Below, piece by piece: positions 42,026-56,290 of a DNA stretch of 64,000 nucleotides. The DNA lies in NCBI RefSeq assembly GCF_000231115.1, contig NW_006889847.1:8117-72116 (forward strand), written 5' to 3'. Every line of letters begins with the position of its first letter. Positions within the stretch are counted from its first letter, which is position 1. The translations under genes were made by a program, and so were the position numbers. This stretch comes from Vittaforma corneae ATCC 50505. Taxonomy: Eukaryota; Microsporidia; Nosematidae. The notes under the pieces were generated by a model. That model saw only the letters and a list, made by a program, of their open reading frames with translations, had not been told where the DNA came from and searched no databases.

Positions 42026-43220
42026 ATGAAATGTGAAGTCTGCGGAACAAGCTACAAAAAAATAGACTCACTTTTGGTTTGTGCAAACGGACACACCCTC
42101 CAAAACACTACAGAAGTGGCACACGATGACAACCCGCTAAGAGGAAGATCAAAAAGAATATACAAGCCAAAGAAAGAGAAAAAAGTAGTATTCAAAAGCG
42201 ACGGTTGCAAACTGATGAGAATGGTACTTATGAGGCTGCTGTTTGAAGAGTCAATGGCATATTTTGGCATAAAAGACAATGTTGTATTCAGATACTTTAC
42301 CGAATTCTTGGAATTTAAAAATGCTAAGCTAGACACCGTTTTTGACATTTCAAAGTTTACATTATCGATTCTTGTGTATTTTGCTAAGAGGTCGGAGATG
42401 GAAAGAAATGGACAGATATATCTATATAACGAGTTCAAAGATACTTTCAATAGCCTTGATCTGACAAACAGATTGATTGGCATAAAAGCTAAATTTCCAA
42501 TGTTAGAGGTGGCAATAAATGAGTTTACTCACAATTATCTTATAACTTCAACAATATGCAGCTTTAGGCCCTGGATCGACGAGTTCTCAAGCCTGTATAT
42601 CTATGCAAGGAGATATGGATTTGTAAAGTCGTCAGAAACTGGAATTCTTGAAGAGTGTGTGGAATCAGCCAAGCACAATATCAGAAGACTGTTTAGAAAT
42701 GATCTGGAGCTTATGAAAGTGTATTTTCCAGACGATATGCAGCCATCTGGGAGTGGAGGTTATTCCAGAACTAGAGTTTTATTTTGAGAAGTTTATCTAT
42801 ACCTACGATCCAAACGTTGTGATATTTCCTGAATATGACTTTACCCTCTTTATTATGTCATACTTTGTTTCAAAAGGCTCGTTTGAAGGATCTGACATTG
42901 AAAAAAACGTGATCGAGTATTTTGGAGTGTGCAAAACGAACCTAATAGCGTCGCACTATGCTCCATTTGTTGATCGATTGAATAATCTGGCGACTCCAGA
43001 ATTATACGTATCATATATGATCAAAAAGAGCAGATCTAGATTTGAAAATCTAAGAGGCGCAATTGAGTTTATAGACGCATATAAGCGACTCGTTGCCGAG
43101 GATATGCAAGATGTGCTGTTGTCAAAAATACCAAATGCCAAGATGGTAAAAAAAATCATTTCTAGTAAGCTAAAGAAGGACAACGAGAGTGTTGATAGTG
43201 AGGATATGGACTTGATATAA
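42026..43220 (+). CDS. RRN7: Rrn7/TAF1B-like RNA polymerase I core factor with zinc ribbon, frame broken once
   Basis: The N-terminus MKCEVCGTSYKKIDSLLVCA then NGH forms a zinc ribbon (CxxC...CxxGH) of the Rrn7/TAF1B type, followed by a basic linker and cyclin-like helical repeats. The frame changes by +1 between about 42730 and 42785: the first part runs 42026-42787, the second is open from before 42753 to 43220 and contains VIPELEFYFEKFIYTYDPNV. Rrn7 is the TFIIB-like component of the polymerase I core factor. Neighbouring Rcl1 and Utp22-like genes also serve rRNA synthesis. About 397 residues joined compared with 514 in yeast. The family call is by zinc ribbon and layout. Confidence 0.6.
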
Positions 43221-46908: not shown

Positions 46909-48482
46909 ATGAATGAGATGGCTCCTCAGATCACCAGCATCCTGCAGCGCAAGTTTTATGGGCTTAATCCACTGCCGTTTCCATCCTATGTTCTCTCGTT
47001 GATGTTTATATCCAAGATACAACCAGATCTTGGAACTCTTCCATTGATACTATTCGTCACTGCAAAACTTGTGTTAATATCGCGGATGGAAAGGCGCGCC
47101 ACCAAGAGCATTATGCGTTTATCTGTTTTTGCCATCTTTTCATTACTTTCATATTTCAAAAATACAAGTGCCCATTCCTACTTTGCAGAAATCTTTGCAT
47201 TTTTATCCTTGACATTCTTTGTGGAGGGGAAATATGTCTGGGCATCAGCGATGCTTTGTTTTTTGACCGCTACTGATCCTCTTTCTCTTCCTGTAATGTC
47301 TACTTAGTGATATTTTCTAGTAGAAAAATTTATCAAAAACTGATTAATCCAAAAAATAGTGTACTGAAAACACTTCTTGGTGGACTAAAGCCGACAGCAT
47401 TATTTATATTACTTCCAATAATCTTCCTTGCAGCATTTATCAGCTTTGATCTGCATGTTAGAAATACCCATAGCCAAGAAAGCTTGGGATTTTCATTGCC
47501 GTTCCAGTCATCACTCAAGAACTTTGACATTACCCAAGGATTTATAAACTCCCATAGCCCAAATAACAGCCTAGAAACAGATTTGTATGTCATGGATAGG
47601 TCAATAATTTCAGTTATGAGCAAGAAGCACAATGCTTTTTTTTCAATTGGTGAAAGTGTTGAGGGTTCAAAAAAGTTTACGAGATTTTGTGAGATTCATA
47701 AAATACATGGCCAGGACTTTGATGATGAGGAGCCTAGGTTTATAAAGGATGGGGATTATGTTAAATTTAAGCATATCGAAGAGGACAAATTTGTAGGAAT
47801 GAAAAGAAACGACTCTGATCAGAAGTTTGTTGAGCTTTCTGCTGGAACTTTTGAGAGTGACGAGGACCTTTGGCAGATTGTAACTGATGGATATTTAAAA
47901 ACACGGTTTTCCGAAGTTGAATTCAAAAATGTCAACAGTGGTGACCAGCTGTGTGCAAAAATGGTAAAAGATCAGCCGAGTTTGAACGCATCATTTTACT
48001 CTGATGTAAAATCAAGAGTATTTTATATAGCGGACAATGTAAACCACGACTATTTCAAAGCTAACTTTCATGATTACAGGACTAGAATCACAACAAATGA
48101 ATATCCTACGCATTCCTTTTTCAAAAAGTTGCAAGAGTATCTGAGCACAGTCAATCTGAAATTCAACAGTGTGGCAGAAAATGCTTCAGGCCTTAAAAAG
48201 TCCTGGTGTATGATGCCAGGCTTACTTTCTATATTCATTCTACTGATAAATGGCATAGCTGCCAGGAGATGGAAATCAAAGATTAGCATCAAAGAAAGCA
48301 CTGTTGTTTTTACAGCAACATACACAATGGCGTGTCTATTTTCCCCAGTGATAGGAGTTAGGGCATACATTATTGCGTCATTTGGTTCACTGTCTCTTTA
48401 CAGCATCATTTCAGATCTTGCCGACATGAAAAAAGGTAAGGTTGTTTTTGCAAGTGGATTTGAGAAAGATAAAAATGAATAA
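46909..48482 (+). CDS. Protein O-mannosyltransferase-like membrane protein with MIR domain, frame broken once and lacking the canonical catalytic N-terminus
   Basis: First frame 46909-47307 (132 residues, several hydrophobic segments); second 47307-48482 (391 residues), shifted by -1 at about 47300. The second part has a membrane helix (ALFILLPIIFLAAFISFDLH) then FSLPFQSSL, the PMT 'MSPxFQxSL' junction, and a MIR-type beta-trefoil (IKDGDYVKFKHIEEDKFVG, DLWQIVTDG, TRFSEVEFKNVNSGDQLCAK). C-terminal membrane helices follow. PMTs O-mannosylate proteins in the ER lumen. The first lumenal loop with the catalytic acidic pair and the HPPxAK motif is absent. About 520 residues joined against about 750 in true PMTs, so activity is doubtful. 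Confidence 0.65.
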
Positions 48483-48679: not shown

Positions 48680-50422
48680 CTATACCCGCTCAACAACCTC
48701 AATGCACTCCTTGTCGAGTCTAAACTTGGTTGGAAACTCGTTTGCAATATCCCTGTCGTGGCATATCACAAAGAATGTCTTCTCCGCATACCGGGGGCTT
48801 CGGATATACTCCAGCAAAAATCTGCTGTGGTTTGCATCGAGGTTGTTTGTGGGCTCGTCAAAGAGATATATCTCGCTGTCTCTCAGAAACGCCCTTGTGT
48901 AGAATATCTTCTGCTTCAGCCCTCCATTTATGCTCTTGCCCCCCTCGCCAACTCCGGTATTGTATCCGCTGGGAAACGACATGATGGCGTCGTGTATCCC
49001 CATGCTCTTGCACTCCTCGATGATTTCCTTGAACGACTTGCTGTTGCCGTATGCCAGGTTGTAGTAGATGCTTTCGTCAAACAGCCTGGTGTCCTGCGGG
49101 ACATATGTTATGAGTCGTCTATAGTCGGATATGCACAGTCTTGACAGCTCAATGCCGTCGAACAGGATGGTGCCTCTGTACTTGTCGAAGCCGAGAAGCA
49201 GCTTGAAGATGGAGCTTTTCCCCGTGCCATTCTTGCCGAACAGAACCACCTTGCTTCCCCTGCTGATGACGAAGCTGACGTTATTGAAGACAAGCTTGTC
49301 CTTGCATGTGTAGCTCAGGTCCTTGACCTCGATGCTTTCTGAGAACGAGCTGATCCTGATTTTTTCATTCTTCAACTCTCGGATATAGTCTAAATAAATC
49401 ATCAATTTTTGTGAAAGAACAACGGATTCAGCTAGATCTCTGTAAAACTTCATGGCTGATATGAAGCAATTGGGAATGTAAACAAGAACTCTGTTAAAGT
49501 TACTAATTTCACCACAGTTGTCTTTTAAATTCATCTCAAATTCTGAATTTTCATTTTTATTTGCAATATACAAAATCGTTATACTTGACACTACAACATC
49601 GCAAAGCAAGTTGAAGACGAAGTCGTTGGAGAACAACAATACTTTACCCTTTATTGTTAGATTTTCCCATCTGTTAAGTGTTCGACTGTATCTGGACATC
49701 ATTTTTTTTTCTTCGCCACTCATTTTAACCACAGGAAATAGATCCATGGTCTCGATATATTGTTTTTCCTTTTCACTGTTGACATCACTCGCTTCGTTAT
49801 TGATATAGAAAACCTTTTGAAGATGGTAAAGCTTGAGGAATGCAATAATAACCATGAAGCATATGAATGATAACGAATTCTTCTTGTATGGTGAAATATC
49901 TTTTACGAAAATAAAATAAAAATCGCTACAAAGCTGAACAAAACAATTAGACATGTTCACAAAAAGAAGCCTTACTATTTTTGCAATGGCCTTACTACTT
50001 TCAGTTATTACATATTCACAATAAGACGGCACAACATCAAACACTGTCGGGTCTTCTGTAAATATCATCTGTGTGAGAATGTACTGAGCAATAATTCCGC
50101 CAATCGGTGTTATAAGCACTTCGAAAGTCATTTTAGAAACAAAATCAATAGACCACCACCAAAGCTTCAGCATCATAAAAACAATCATTTCGCCAGGAAC
50201 AATGCTTGGTCTTTCAAACCCATTCTCCTTGATGGGTGGCCTTTTTTCCAGCATGTCTCTGAAGCCCTTTTCATAGAAATCCATCCATCCTCTCATAGAA
50301 ATCAGAGCGAAAATCAGGGCTATATAAATGTTTGGATGCCTAGTCCGTTTTGAAAAGAAGTTATATGACATTTTCAAGGAATTGAAAAACTCTGCTCGTG
50401 ACATGGCTCCTTTAGCAGGCAT
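48680..50422 (-). CDS. Half-size ABC transporter, Atm1/ABCB-like (copy 1)
   Basis: 580 residues from the ATG at 50422 (context CCCCATCCCC). An N-terminal half with about five membrane segments (e.g. NIYIALIFALISMRGW, SLSFICFMVIIAFLKLYH) and a C-terminal nucleotide-binding domain: Walker A LFGKNGTGKSS, Q-loop YVPQDTRLF, signature VGEGGKSINGGLKQ, Walker B EIYLFDEPTNNLD, H-loop ICHDRD. VGxGGxxxxGGxKQ and the half-size layout recall Atm1-type exporters, of which microsporidia keep several. The LSGGQ core is replaced by INGGL. Most of the domain (48729-49360) is GC-rich and identical to copy 2 at 55639-56270, which points to recent gene conversion or duplication. Confidence 0.88.
   Translation of the reverse strand: MPAKGAMSRAEFFNSLKMSYNFFSKRTRHPNIYIALIFALISMRGWMDFYEKGFRDMLEKRPPIKENGFERPSIVPGEMIVFMMLKLWWWSIDFVSKMTFEVLITPIGGIIAQYILTQMIFTEDPTVFDVVPSYCEYVITESSKAIAKIVRLLFVNMSNCFVQLCSDFYFIFVKDISPYKKNSLSFICFMVIIAFLKLYHLQKVFYINNEASDVNSEKEKQYIETMDLFPVVKMSGEEKKMMSRYSRTLNRWENLTIKGKVLLFSNDFVFNLLCDVVVSSITILYIANKNENSEFEMNLKDNCGEISNFNRVLVYIPNCFISAMKFYRDLAESVVLSQKLMIYLDYIRELKNEKIRISSFSESIEVKDLSYTCKDKLVFNNVSFVISRGSKVVLFGKNGTGKSSIFKLLLGFDKYRGTILFDGIELSRLCISDYRRLITYVPQDTRLFDESIYYNLAYGNSKSFKEIIEECKSMGIHDAIMSFPSGYNTGVGEGGKSINGGLKQKIFYTRAFLRDSEIYLFDEPTNNLDANHSRFLLEYIRSPRYAEKTFFVICHDRDIANEFPTKFRLDKECIEVVERV
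48729..49360 (-). repeat. 632-bp inverted repeat, left arm
   Basis: Base-for-base reverse complement of 55639-56270 in every line compared. It encodes the nucleotide-binding domain of the copy 1 ABC transporter. Identity stops sharply at TGATCCTGAT (49360); the flanks and the membrane domains are unrelated at the DNA level. GC is visibly higher than in the surroundings. Confidence 0.95.
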
Positions 50423-51105
50423 GGGGATGGGGATTGCTGTTGGAATTTTGAATAAAGGAGAATAAAGAAAAAGAAAAATTTTCAGAAAAATTTCCAAAGC
50501 TCTTGTCCAAGTCCATAGACATTTAATAGCGTTCGATATTTTTGCATATGTGCAACGCTTTTTAATTGTCTCTGGATGGCGCGGTTTGTCTTTTATTTTC
50601 TTATTAATTTTTCATGGTACGTCTAAATGTAGCACACAGCCTATATCAATAACTTGACCACAGCGTCCTATTATTGGCTATGCAGCATCCAAACATTACA
50701 AATAAATATAGTTGCAGTTTTCTGCTGCAGCTATATGAATTTGAGATGTTGATATAAATTCGTATCCTTAGTTTTTGAAGTAGATATAGAAGATAGAATG
50801 TTAAACTATAGAATGAGTCGTCTATAAGCTTCCTCAACATAAATTACTACTCCTAGACTGCCAGTTGGTCTTGCATTTAATTTCAATATTGTCATCTGTA
50901 AATAGTTCGCAAATTAAAATTTACTTTAAAATGCATCAGTGTTAATTCCTGTCACTAAAGGCTTAGCTTTTAAATAGCCTCTATTCCCAAGATAAACTGT
51001 GAATAACCAGCATTAATCCACAAAGTTAGATTCTTGAATGCTTGTATTAACTTTATATTTTTCTGACTCATTGTTTATAAAATTATTTTGTTTTTATTCT
51101 CCTAA
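50423..51105. other. Divergent intergenic region ABC copy 1/flippase
   Basis: 680 bp of AT-rich DNA. Near the ABC gene, on the reverse strand, GAAATTTTTCTG and AAAATTTTTC precede its CCCC-rich start. No gene or RNA is recognised in the remainder. Confidence 0.5.
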
Positions 51106-54100
51106 ATGAATCTAGCCGATCCAGCCACAAGCCAGAACAATACACCAGATACAATTCTAGGCAACAAGGTGCCACCGAATATTGGATTTCCAAACAAGAT
51201 TGTAACCAGCAAATACACTGTCTACTCATTTCTCCCGGTAAATTTCATACATCAATTATCAAAAGGCTCAACATTTTTCTTTTTTATAACATTGATTCTA
51301 ATGTGCATCCCAAAGATAAGTCCGTTCGAACCTTACACATACATTCTGGCCTTCTGTATCATTGTGGGTGTTTCTATGATTAAAGACGCCATGGAGGATT
51401 ACAAAAGACACAAAGACGACGATGTTATTAATAAAACAATGGTAAAAATTGTAAAAATGGTTGAACGTGGAAATCAAAAGAAAGCATTTGAAATCTCTGA
51501 AAAATACTGCATGGAACTAAATCGGGGAGACTACATTCTTGCTGAAAAAGACATGGAAATTCAAGCAGATGTCGTTCTTTTGAGAAGTAAGAAACATCAT
51601 AAAAACCGACTGGGATGTGCAAACCATTGCTACATCGAAACATCCAATATTGATGGGGAATCAAATCTGAAGAAGAAAAGTGCTATTACATCTCCTCTTT
51701 GTGGGAGCTTGTCCATAGACGCTTCTGACAAATCTCTTGAGCTTTGTGGATGTTGCGAATATTTTTTCAGAAATATTAACTCTTTCGAATTGAAGGATAC
51801 TGGCGACTCATTTAATGAATTTGAATGCGACTTTAATATTGAAGGCAAGCTATTGATTGCAAACATTAAAAACGTGCTTCTAAGAGGATCGATTTTGAAA
51901 AATACTGAAAATGCACTTTGCCTTGTTGTGGGCGTTGGCAGTGATACAAAACAGTCAAAGAGTATGTACAAATCAAAGAAGTCAAAAACCTTGTTTGACC
52001 AACGGATGAATCTTATTCTTATTGCAGTCCTGATGCTGTATGCCTTCATGTTGGTCATTACAAGCATTGTTGGATCTTTGTTTCTTATTTTCAACAAGGA
52101 GAATGTCTACTTGAATATTTCTAATATAGGGCCTTCAATCATACAGCTAATCTTTTCTAACTATGTGCTTTATACGTATCTAATACCGTTGAGCCTCTAT
52201 GTAATTTTGGAAGTGGCTAGATTCGTCCAAACATTATACATTTCACATGACAAAAGCATGATGGCGGGTGGAAAAGAATCTAAATGCAGAAACTCCAATG
52301 CAATTGAAGATCTGGGTGTGATAGACTATATTCTAACCGACAAAACAGGAACAATAACTAAAAACTCAATGACACTGAAGTATATTCATGAGAAAAACAA
52401 AGAGAATCTGTCGACGCCCAACGATCTATGCAGGAGTCTTTCAGTAATTCTGACTGATAATACAGGATGTGTCGATATGAAAGTCTTGGAAAAGCTTTTG
52501 TCGGAAGACTCTCCAAAAAGAGACAAGCTTCTTATGATTTTGAACATGCTAGTATGCAATTCGGTTGAAATTCTAAATGGGAGGGCAGAGGGCATTAGCC
52601 AAGAAGAGCTTTGTTTTTTAGAGTCCGTTGGCCAGCATGGCCTTTATTTATGCGAGAGGGATGAAAGCTTTGTCGTTGTCAAAATATTAGATAAAAAGAT
52701 CAATATTAATATTGTTGGAACACTTGATTTTACATCCCGAAGACAGAGAATGTGTGTGATCATAGAAATATTAGGACGATTCTTTCTTCTGGAAAAAGGG
52801 TCTGATTCGATGCTGTTAGAGAAAGCCAGAGACTCAAGCATACTCCAAATTATCAACTCATCGACCGATTACAGGTGTTTGGTTATGAAATATAAGGAAA
52901 TGTCTCCGGAGGCTGCAGAGGAGTTTCAAGAGCTTTCAAAAATAGAGCTAGAAAATGAAGATGCTAAAGACGACGAGAGAACTGACGATGCAGAAAATGA
53001 CGTGCATTTGGCAAACAACTTGTTACAAAGAAAGCAACAGTTAGAGGAAGAGAACTTTGAAAGGCTTGAAAAGAACACCATATACCTTGGTTCAACATTT
53101 ATCGAAGACAAGTTGCAAGATGAAGTGCAGGAAACAGTGCGTATATTAAAAGAAGCTGGCATTAAGATATGGATGATTACAGGAGACAAAAAGGAGACTG
53201 CCATCGCTTGTGCAAAAAACTCATATATTATTGAAAACAATGATTTTGTAGCTTTTGATGGCAAACGAGTATTGGATTTGATGGAAAGCTGTGTTGGAAA
53301 TGAAAGGCTAAGCCAAAATGGCTCTTCCGTTCAAGGCATGCAAGGACGTGAAAAGTGATTATTCGCACGGCCAGCAGGTCAATGAGCTTAGTATTTTCAA
53401 CAAGCCAAGTGTTGTTATTTACAGGGCTACGCCCTCACAAAAGGGCAGAATAGCAGCTTTTCTGGTAAAATCTGGCAGAAGTACCCTAAGTATCGGCGAC
53501 GGAAACAACGATGTAGCCATGCTTAAGGATTCACATGTGGGTGTTGGGATTATGGGAAAGGAAGGCACACAAGCAGCTTTATCTGCTGATTTTGCAATTC
53601 CACAGTTTAGAAATCTTAAAAACCTTATACTTATTCATGGAAGATACAGCTTTCTTAGATACACTAAGATTGCACTCAACTCGTATTACAAAAACATCGT
53701 TTTTATCGTTGCGCAGTTCATGTACAATCTCTACTCAGGCGCCTCTGCATCGCCCCTCTATAACTCATTTACCCTCAACTACTATAATCTATTCTTTACT
53801 TCGATGATCCCCTTTTCAGTCGTTCTTTTTGATCGTGATGTAACTCCCTCGTTTGCACTTAACCAGCCTTCTAGCTATAGACACATTAGGAATCACTTTG
53901 ACAAGATTTTCATTGTTCTAAATATATTTTTTGCAGTTTTTGAAGCGCTTGTCGTCTTTTTTGGCATCAGGCTGCTCACCCTGAATGACATAACAAACGG
54001 GTCGGGAATTTTAGGTGCATATGCAAGTATCAGCACAATATTCTCAATTATAGTTATCTACACGGTTGTTTTGAGACAAATCCGACAGATTTCTTACAGG

Positions 54101-54328
54101 GTATTCTTCACTGATATTGCCATTGCGCTGACTATCATTCTAAACATTGTTTCAATATTTGTAATCCAGGAACTTTACAATAGAAGCAACTATACGATAT
54201 ACTATCTACTGTCTATGCCATACTTTTATTTTATCTGCATATGCCTTTGCACACTGATTTATTCTGCCGACACAGTTTTTGAAAACGTTTGCTTGTATTT
54301 AGAAGATAGGCTAAAAATGAAAAATTAA
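51106..54328 (+). CDS. P4-type ATPase (phospholipid flippase), frame broken once
   Basis: Moves aminophospholipids to the cytosolic leaflet with a CDC50 partner. First frame 51106-53358: FPNKIVTSKYTVYSFLPVNF (P4 entry motif), YIETSNIDGESNLKK (P4 actuator loop, DGES), phosphorylation site LTDKTGTITKN with Asp near residue 412, TGDKKETAIACA. Second frame 53318-54328: VVIYRATPSQKGRIAAFL, LSIGDGNNDVAMLKDSHVGV and six C-terminal membrane helices. DGES with Gly-rich GDGNND (usual GDGAND) is P4-like. The frames differ by +1 at about 53315-53358. Joined length about 1,070 residues, shorter than yeast Drs2. The CDC50-family gene at 24.8 kb is the likely beta subunit. It lies between the two inverted ABC genes. 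Confidence 0.88.
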
Positions 54329-54608
54329 ATTGATATTAGAACCTCTGTGCCTTACTCTTTGGCCTACCGATGTAAGTTATTTAATGGCATGTGGCAATCT
54401 TTGCTACCTTTGCAGCTATTTTTAATAAACGATCTCCTATTAAAAATTTTCATGCTTGGCATTTGGGGTAATTAAAAGTGAGATACAAATGCGGACACGA
54501 AACTCCATTTACAGCCGCATGGCTATATCCAGTAATGGGCATGAAAGTCTGATATTTTACATTTTAAAGGGGCTGTTTAAAATATTTTCCCCCTCTTTGC
54601 CAAGAACA

Positions 54609-56270
54609 ATGAACGATATCGGCAAAGCAAAGACACCAACAAAATGGGAGATCACCAAGCTTTCTCTCAAGTATTTTGGCATTCTGAGCAAAAGAAAACA
54701 TCAAGTCATCTGCACAATTATTTTCATTACTGTTTTCAAGAACTATCTAAAGTATGAGGCCGACTGTACAAAGTTTCTCTTAAAAAACAGCTCATCGGTG
54801 GGAGAGATGAAAATAGCGTTCTATAAAGATATCCCTTTACAATTCTCTGTGGTCTGCAAGTAATTTTCTGACCGACTATCTTTTCGAAAAGCAACTTACC
54901 CAATTTGGTGGTTATATTGCAGTCAAAGTTTTAGAAAAGTTTTTGTTTTCAAGCTCAAAGCTGGCTTTTGAAACACCAGGAAGCCATCTTGAATACTACA
55001 TGTCAGAGGGCGGCAAAGCACTTGCCAAAATAAGCAAATTCATTGTTTTCAGCTTTCTTTCAAAAGTCAGCCACTTTATTTTTGATTTCTTTACAATTAT
55101 ACATCTTGATGATTCAAAAAACAAAAATATTACTGTGATCTTTATGATCTCTCTGATACTGTTAGGAGCAATCAAACTTTGGAAGATGCCAAAAATCATT
55201 TATTTTAACAAGATGAACATCGACATTGCCTATGAAAAGGAAAAATGCATAAACGAGACGCTCGAAAACCTTGCGATAGTCAAAGCATATGGAACTAAGA
55301 AGCATACGGTTTCAAAGTATGCTAGAAAAGCTTTTATGTGGGAATCTGCAAACGTTTCATACAAATTTTGGAATCTCTCCACTGATATGATATTCAACTG
55401 TATTAGCACAGCTGCTAGACCTGGAATAGGTCTTCTTTATATTCTTTGGTGTAGTCCTAGCAATGGAAAAATGCACGTTCAAAACAACGATGTTTTAAAT
55501 CATATGGATAAGATCACTGAAATGTTGAAGACAATTGTTTCATTAGTCAGTATCCAGACTGAGTTACTTCAAACGTACATTTTAACCGAAAATGTTATTG
55601 AGTATTTGAGGTTGGCAAATGAAGAAGTTAATAGAGAGATCAGGATCAGCTCGTTCTCAGAAAGCATCGAGGTCAAGGACCTGAGCTACACATGCAAGGA
55701 CAAGCTTGTCTTCAATAACGTCAGCTTCGTCATCAGCAGGGGAAGCAAGGTGGTTCTGTTCGGCAAGAATGGCACGGGGAAAAGCTCCATCTTCAAGCTG
55801 CTTCTCGGCTTCGACAAGTACAGAGGCACCATCCTGTTCGACGGCATTGAGCTGTCAAGACTGTGCATATCCGACTATAGACGACTCATAACATATGTCC
55901 CGCAGGACACCAGGCTGTTTGACGAAAGCATCTACTACAACCTGGCATACGGCAACAGCAAGTCGTTCAAGGAAATCATCGAGGAGTGCAAGAGCATGGG
56001 GATACACGACGCCATCATGTCGTTTCCCAGCGGATACAATACCGGAGTTGGCGAGGGGGGCAAGAGCATAAATGGAGGGCTGAAGCAGAAGATATTCTAC
56101 ACAAGGGCGTTTCTGAGAGACAGCGAGATATATCTCTTTGACGAGCCCACAAACAACCTCGATGCAAACCACAGCAGATTTTTGCTGGAGTATATCCGAA
56201 GCCCCCGGTATGCGGAGAAGACATTCTTTGTGATATGCCACGACAGGGATATTGCAAACGAGTTTCCAAC
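54609..56270 (+). CDS. Half-size ABC transporter, Atm1/ABCB-like (copy 2), frame broken and cut by an assembly gap
   Basis: Starts at the ATG at 54609 (a longer open frame begins at 54456) and is open to 54863, then continues in the +1 frame (open before 54943) to the N run at 56271. The membrane part (SHLEYYMSEGGKALAKISKF, YLKYEADCTKFLL) is only distantly similar to copy 1. From 55639 the nucleotide-binding domain is identical in DNA to copy 1 (Walker A GKNGTGKSS, DEPTNNLD, ICHDRD). By comparison with copy 1 only about 16 residues and the stop are missing. TATTTTCCCCC lies upstream of the start. The frame change at 54840-54863 could be an indel error. Confidence 0.82.
55639..56270 (+). repeat. 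632-bp inverted repeat, right arm
   Basis: Reverse complement of 48729-49360 without a single difference seen over ten 60-base lines compared. Ends at the N run, so the true right boundary is unknown. Two 60-base lines inside it count 48% and 53% G+C, against 37% in one line (55381-55440) just outside. Confidence 0.95.
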
Positions 56271-56290
56271 NNNNNNNNNNNNNNNNNNNN
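56271..56290. other. Assembly gap (20 N)
   Basis: A run of 20 N directly at the end of the 632-bp repeat arm. The true distance between the ABC gene and the coiled-coil gene is unknown. The gap position is what an assembler would produce when a repeat cannot be bridged. Confidence 0.98.

Follow-up and report, generated by a model that had tools for sequence, protein, structure and literature searches.

In fugu protocadherin subclusters, excerpts of the published study describe regional gene conversion with a GC content at third codon positions (GC3) of 54-61% in converted parts versus 38-45% elsewhere (five rows; PMC1852091). Mosaic concerted evolution is also described, in parts of another report, for the mammalian pairs BMP8A/B, DDX19A/B and TUBG1/2, in which third-position GC is raised, significantly in two of the three pairs, and for which common binding domains were proposed as the reason (PMC2720389). 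As cited in the same excerpts, conversion is said to affect structural or binding parts of receptor pairs such as TLR1/TLR6 and CCR2/CCR5, with divergence elsewhere, and heterodimer formation is put forward as the argument (PMC2720389). For microsporidia, variation in GC-biased conversion is listed, in part of one paper, as one of at least three hard-to-separate explanations of base composition (PMC4948709), and a passage of a 2025 paper states that unequivocal genomic recombination signals had not yet been observed in these parasites, before presenting its own (PMC12558613). Here, we analyzed 64,000 nucleotides of the Vittaforma corneae ATCC 50505 genome (assembly GCF_000231115.1, contig NW_006889847.1, positions 8,117 to 72,116; hereafter, the window), which contain an inverted repeat within two divergent ATP-binding cassette (ABC) half-transporter genes. 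The repeat is the part that codes for their nucleotide-binding domains (NBDs), and it has very probably been kept identical by recurrent GC-biased gene conversion ending at the linker between the transmembrane domain (TMD) and the NBD.

The two arms of the repeat (Table 1) are exact reverse complements over 632 bp with no mismatches, as a sequence-only reading of the window had reported. Lengthening the arms to 641 bp brings in four mismatches (49361, 49363, 49365 and 49366), and a search of the 2.90-Mb, 35-contig genome, of which some sequence may be missing, found two copies of the block and no third. The same reading had described the membrane domains as distantly similar and the shared block as GC-richer, and both descriptions hold: the encoded proteins are identical at 209 of 209 NBD residues versus 25% identity in the TMDs, and GC is 50.0% in the block versus 35% and 34% in the TMD halves. 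It did not mention the 20-N gap that the right arm abuts. The outer edge of the right arm is an assembly edge, not a natural boundary, and because the arm stops at the gap, 632 bp is a lower bound on the length of the repeat. The left gene runs 49 nt past its arm, stop codon counted, and 10 of its 16 further codons end in G or C. The shared block may extend to the stop codon, like the protein identity in Glugoides intestinalis described below.

The two ABC genes are transcribed in opposite directions, outward from a P4-ATPase gene that separates them. Both are predicted to encode type IV ABC half-transporters (ABCB/Atm1-like), with a helical TMD followed by an NBD that carries the expected motifs, and a matching predicted fold: the model of the left protein (mean predicted local distance difference test score 81, predicted template modelling score 0.69) matches half-transporters of the Atm1 family, ABCB7 and TAP. 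The Pfam ABC membrane domain had no match in the window proteins. Strings that we take to be Walker A, the signature (INGGLKQ), Walker B, the Q-loop and the H-loop are present in both proteins, so that each ATP site of a putative heterodimer would be built from the same parts. The textbook form of the ABC signature is LSGGQ; in a 20-member alignment, the NGGL and Q positions of INGGLKQ are invariant. When placed on the model, the identity starts at residue 355-356, after a TMD helix (339-347) and before the first long strand of the NBD (363-373).

Comparison with other microsporidia extends the pattern beyond the window. A total of 40 proteins (P0001-P0015 and P0121-P0145) were drawn from protein searches that listed 120 of 666 and 120 of 255 matches, and all of them entered the identity table; an alignment-based protein search gave no new close member among 120 listed of 187 matches. 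Among the 120 listed of 666 matches, the closest named relatives of the left protein (P0001) come from G. intestinalis (63%) and then Pancytospora epiphaga. In G. intestinalis, the left-type P0002 and the right-type P0009 are identical at 225 of 225 NBD residues, and their TMDs are 24% identical. Each lies on a 439,321-bp contig, a length equal to the contig N50 given in part of the report on the PacBio HiFi assembly of this species (PMC12449221), from which we infer that both lie on one and the same contig. Across the two species, identity is 58% for the left TMDs, 56% for the right TMDs and 71-75% for the NBDs. NBD paralogues are therefore more alike than orthologues (100% versus 71-75%), whereas the reverse is found for the TMDs (24-25% versus 56-58%), as expected of segmental concerted evolution. 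In the window, the identity also reaches synonymous sites, with 632 bp exact, subject to the caveat of the gap.

A further pair, P0004/P0121, has identical NBDs (225/225) and TMDs that are 20% identical, and the Pancytospora proteins P0010 and P0015 are 91% identical over 116 NBD residues, with 35% in the TMD. In the three pairs with identical NBDs, the identical run starts 1, 9 and 2 residues ahead of the reference column, and the identity edge is thus nearly the same in each. P0015 is partial and stops inside the NBD, like the right copy of the window; assemblies may perhaps be prone to break at homogenised NBDs. In addition, viral contigs were scanned with the family alignment and gave two loci at 33-36% identity, which were not used.

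Phylogenetic trees were built from 35 of the 40 proteins, omitting P0132, P0133 and P0143 (short or partial) as well as P0144 and P0145 (distant). In the TMD tree, left-type proteins form one clade (10 rows, support 100/100) and right-type proteins another (7 rows, 100/99), and V. corneae and G. intestinalis are sisters in both. The NBD tree follows lineage instead: the window pair is joined with support 100/99, the G. intestinalis pair is identical, the Pancytospora pair has 99/93, and left and right types are intermingled in two larger clades (99/99 and 100/97). This conflict is strong in approximately unbiased (AU) tests (p from 1e-7 to 1e-96), for which groups were defined from the TMD tree and, in the two tests on all rows, no constraint was placed on two sets of identical rows. 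A single clade of left-type NBDs is rejected with p 1e-55 (p 1e-45 without the three identical pairs) and a single clade of right-type NBDs with p 3e-96; conversely, joining the TMDs of each pair as a clade is rejected for 4 of 4 pairs. The mixed NBD clades suggest that homogenisation took place on older branches too, with copies that have since diverged.

The compositional change coincides with the edge of the identity. In the left gene, 163 of 226 NBD codons end in G or C versus 138 of 354 TMD codons (p 4.8e-15), and there is no significant difference between NBD and TMD at codon positions 1 and 2 (p 0.19 and 0.12). Four-fold sites are 69% GC in the NBD versus 32% and 25% in the two TMDs, and TMD GC3 is 0.37-0.39 in the two window genes. 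As a background, 1092 overlapping 630-nt windows in 99 open reading frames (ORFs), taken from nine stretches (about 246 kb of the 2.90 Mb) that were picked for ABC genes and are hence a non-random sample, have a mean GC3 of 0.404 with a standard deviation of 0.057. The repeat-bearing ORFs reach 0.724, and the next-highest of the 99 ORFs after these two reaches 0.576. Two-segment fits of GC3 place the change point exactly at the identity edge in the left gene (49360) and at 55636 in the right gene, where identity starts at 55639. The rise in GC at near-neutral sites, both third positions and four-fold sites, is therefore restricted to the presumed converted tract, and a GC bias is well supported in this genome. 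Within 48683-49360, GC3 is 0.75-0.9 toward the TMD edge in most 20-codon bins (one is 0.5) and about 0.6 toward the C-terminus, a possible gradient within the block.

The other half-transporters of the genome served as controls. Twelve half-transporter ORFs were compared, namely the window pair and ten controls, in one of which (C1:41277-42116) that frame is missing most of the TMD; the comparison did not extend to four ABC ATPase ORFs that are more distant (one on C2 and three on C9). Among the resulting 66 NBD pairs, the window pair alone exceeds 44% identity, and all ten control NBDs have a GC3 of 0.31-0.47.

These observations are most simply explained by ectopic gene conversion, that is, repair copying between the inverted NBD paralogues, in which mismatch repair of the heteroduplex would favour G or C. 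Repeated conversion would renew the homology of the NBDs, and the process could thereby sustain itself. The TMDs, at about 25% protein identity, presumably retain too little DNA homology for strand exchange, and the tracts would stop at the linker for this reason. The outcome would be two half-transporters with different membrane halves and one common ATPase motor, which perhaps act as a heterodimer; selection for a common motor in such a putative heterodimer could contribute.

The sequence-only reading had proposed ongoing, ATPase-restricted and possibly GC-biased conversion. The G. intestinalis pair, the tree conflict with its AU tests and the jump in synonymous GC, with its change point at the identity edge, all support conversion confined to the ATPase domain; "ongoing" goes a step further, being read from a zero-difference count next to a gap. 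That reading also pointed to an alignment of the half-ABC paralogues, in which only the window pair proved homogenised among the 12 NBDs, and to a search for the same boundaries in other copies. The boundaries recur at the protein level in G. intestinalis but are absent from three other divergent ABC pairs of the genome and from P0008/P0123, a linked pair belonging to another lineage.

Several observations weigh against recurrent conversion as the full account. P0008 and P0123, each on an 11,654-bp contig, have NBDs that are only 60% identical, and homogenisation is therefore not universal. The three other divergent ABC pairs (C25:8915-16085, C9:76126-80154 and C1:36165-40328) have NBDs that are 27-34% identical, with no homogenisation; these pairs also rule out inverted geometry alone as a cause. 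P0004 and P0121 come from short contigs and were paired solely by the identity of their NBDs, and the left-type P0003 has no resolved place in the NBD tree. Outside the window, pair identity is known as protein alone, and the GC3 figures are those of this genome alone. Because the NBD side is identical, only the TMD sides of the two change-point fits are independent. Moreover, the right ABC gene loses its final codons to the gap and shifts frame near 54825, and the flippase gene is split into two overlapping ORFs. The frame shifts within the window genes are probably assembly indel errors, or else decay; together with the gap, they call for caution in reading the exact zero-difference count, which may partly reflect a collapsed consensus. 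Other neighbouring ORF pairs of the window that overlap in different frames lie at 42026-43220 and 46909-48482.

An assembly artefact, in which a single collapsed NBD appears at two places or was misjoined to the second TMD and the right gene has an NBD of its own, is favoured by an arm that stops exactly at the gap and by the frame changes in the right ABC gene and the flippase gene, which make indel errors likely in this assembly. However, the G. intestinalis proteins, from a contig with the N50 length of a HiFi assembly, show the same NBD-limited identity, and NBDs that are not identical also cluster by lineage. In addition, the 12 half-transporter NBDs include no candidate for a right-type NBD that has been displaced, although one may have gone unassembled: the best pair besides that of the window is 44% identical, and the ORF without most of its TMD (C1:41277-42116) and the repeat NBD share 37% identity. 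We therefore regard an artefact as unlikely; the concern, raised by the sequence-only reading, that one arm was copied in by the assembler is weakened, less so for the exact zero-difference count.

We consider it quite unlikely that the NBD segment was copied a single time in the recent past, either between the two genes or from a GC-rich source. Zero differences are what a recent copy would leave, and the GC jump would follow from a GC-rich donor. Nevertheless, the NBDs are identical within each species yet 25-29% different between species, and at least two events are needed to produce this. No GC3-rich donor exists among the ten other NBDs in the stretches examined, and a GC-rich foreign donor is ruled out by the absence of a significant shift at codon positions 1 and 2 and by the position of the NBD protein inside the microsporidian family in the tree.

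A functional inversion switch, in which recombination between the arms flips 49361-55638 and alters expression, is highly improbable. Flipping, which the sequence-only reading had raised for the enclosed flippase gene, would be permitted by inverted arms 6.3 kb apart, but the breakpoints would fall in identical coding sequence, where, as far as the sequence shows, each TMD keeps its promoter and the same NBD and the 3' ends alone are swapped. Selection on the NBD in place of DNA exchange, whether strong purifying selection or codon selection, has a negligible chance of being correct: although the NBD is conserved and has the ABC motifs, synonymous sites are identical over 632 bp, which refutes it unless the assembly is wrong, the other ten NBDs from this domain family are at most 44% identical to one another and have no GC3 rise, and the ordinary GC3 in the TMD halves of the same genes rules out codon selection for expression.

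Recurrent, linker-bound conversion thus remains the preferred explanation. A bolder version, which we put forward tentatively and would sooner doubt than accept, is that the long-diverged half-transporters form an obligate heterodimer on one ATPase motor, and that GC-biased conversion rewrites this motor in both genes, lineage after lineage, in a microsporidian clade. That the two half-transporters pair at all is a possibility suggested by their linkage and common NBD. Since the TMD halves act as internal controls, GC bias becomes directly testable in microsporidia, and the locus, if correctly interpreted, would be a footprint, local and direct, that GC-biased recombination repair has left in parasites for which recombination is still debated. 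Through a recurrent tract ending at the linker, a protein could retain a common motor and leave its membrane half free to evolve. Trees and assemblies of these genes may be misleading where the NBD is part of them.

Table 1. Positions of the repeat, the genes that carry or separate its arms, the assembly gap and the GC3 change points (coordinates of the window).
Feature	Position	Strand	Details
Left arm, NBD-coding	48729..49360	-	Reverse complement of 55639-56270; GC3 0.73
Right arm, NBD-coding	55639..56270	+	Identical to left arm
20-N assembly gap cutting off right arm	56271..56290		N run
Left ABC half-transporter gene (580 aa, P0001; TMD + NBD)	48680..50422	-	ORF, ATG at 50422; PF00005; predicted fold
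Right ABC half-transporter gene (P0009 orthologue)	54609..56270	+	Span matching P0009; frame change near 54825; 3' end lost in gap
P4-ATPase (phospholipid flippase) gene between arms	51106..54328	+	Two overlapping ORFs in different frames; PF16209 in the first, PF16212 in the second
GC3 change-point support range, left gene	49351..49405		Best 49360
GC3 change-point support range, right gene	55630..55642		Best 55636

Among ABC transporters, the window proteins resemble Atm1, ABCB7 and TAP in predicted fold and NBD motifs. TAP and many other ABC heterodimers have one degenerate ATP site; unlike them, both window genes encode the same NBD. We found no report of NBD-restricted conversion in ABC half-transporters in the open-access literature, which is weak evidence of absence. 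As in the excerpts on fugu protocadherins (PMC1852091), one coding end is near-identical among paralogues and the rest has diverged, the converted part is richer in GC3, the homogenisation is lineage-specific, and the boundary, there at the EC4 or EC5 domain, is a domain boundary here too. The fugu genes, however, are described there as tandem clusters of many paralogues whose unconverted parts are less divergent, whereas here two inverted genes lie 6 kb apart, identity between their unconverted halves is about 25%, and GC3 reaches 0.72 versus 0.37-0.39. The mammalian pairs, according to the portion of that report used here (PMC2720389), share with this locus a linked two-copy arrangement (one of the pairs is inverted), homogenisation limited to a segment in the mammals examined and raised GC3; their homogenised segments are said there not to match protein domains clearly, whereas here the NBD is the unit that is homogenised and its edge coincides with the TMD-NBD linker. 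TLR1/TLR6 and CCR2/CCR5, as cited in the same portion, differ in being receptors, with neither an ATPase motor nor a compact parasite genome. Segmental concerted evolution with raised GC3 is already established by the fugu and mammalian systems, and the V. corneae locus is set apart by an unusually clean domain boundary and by its recurrence in a second species.

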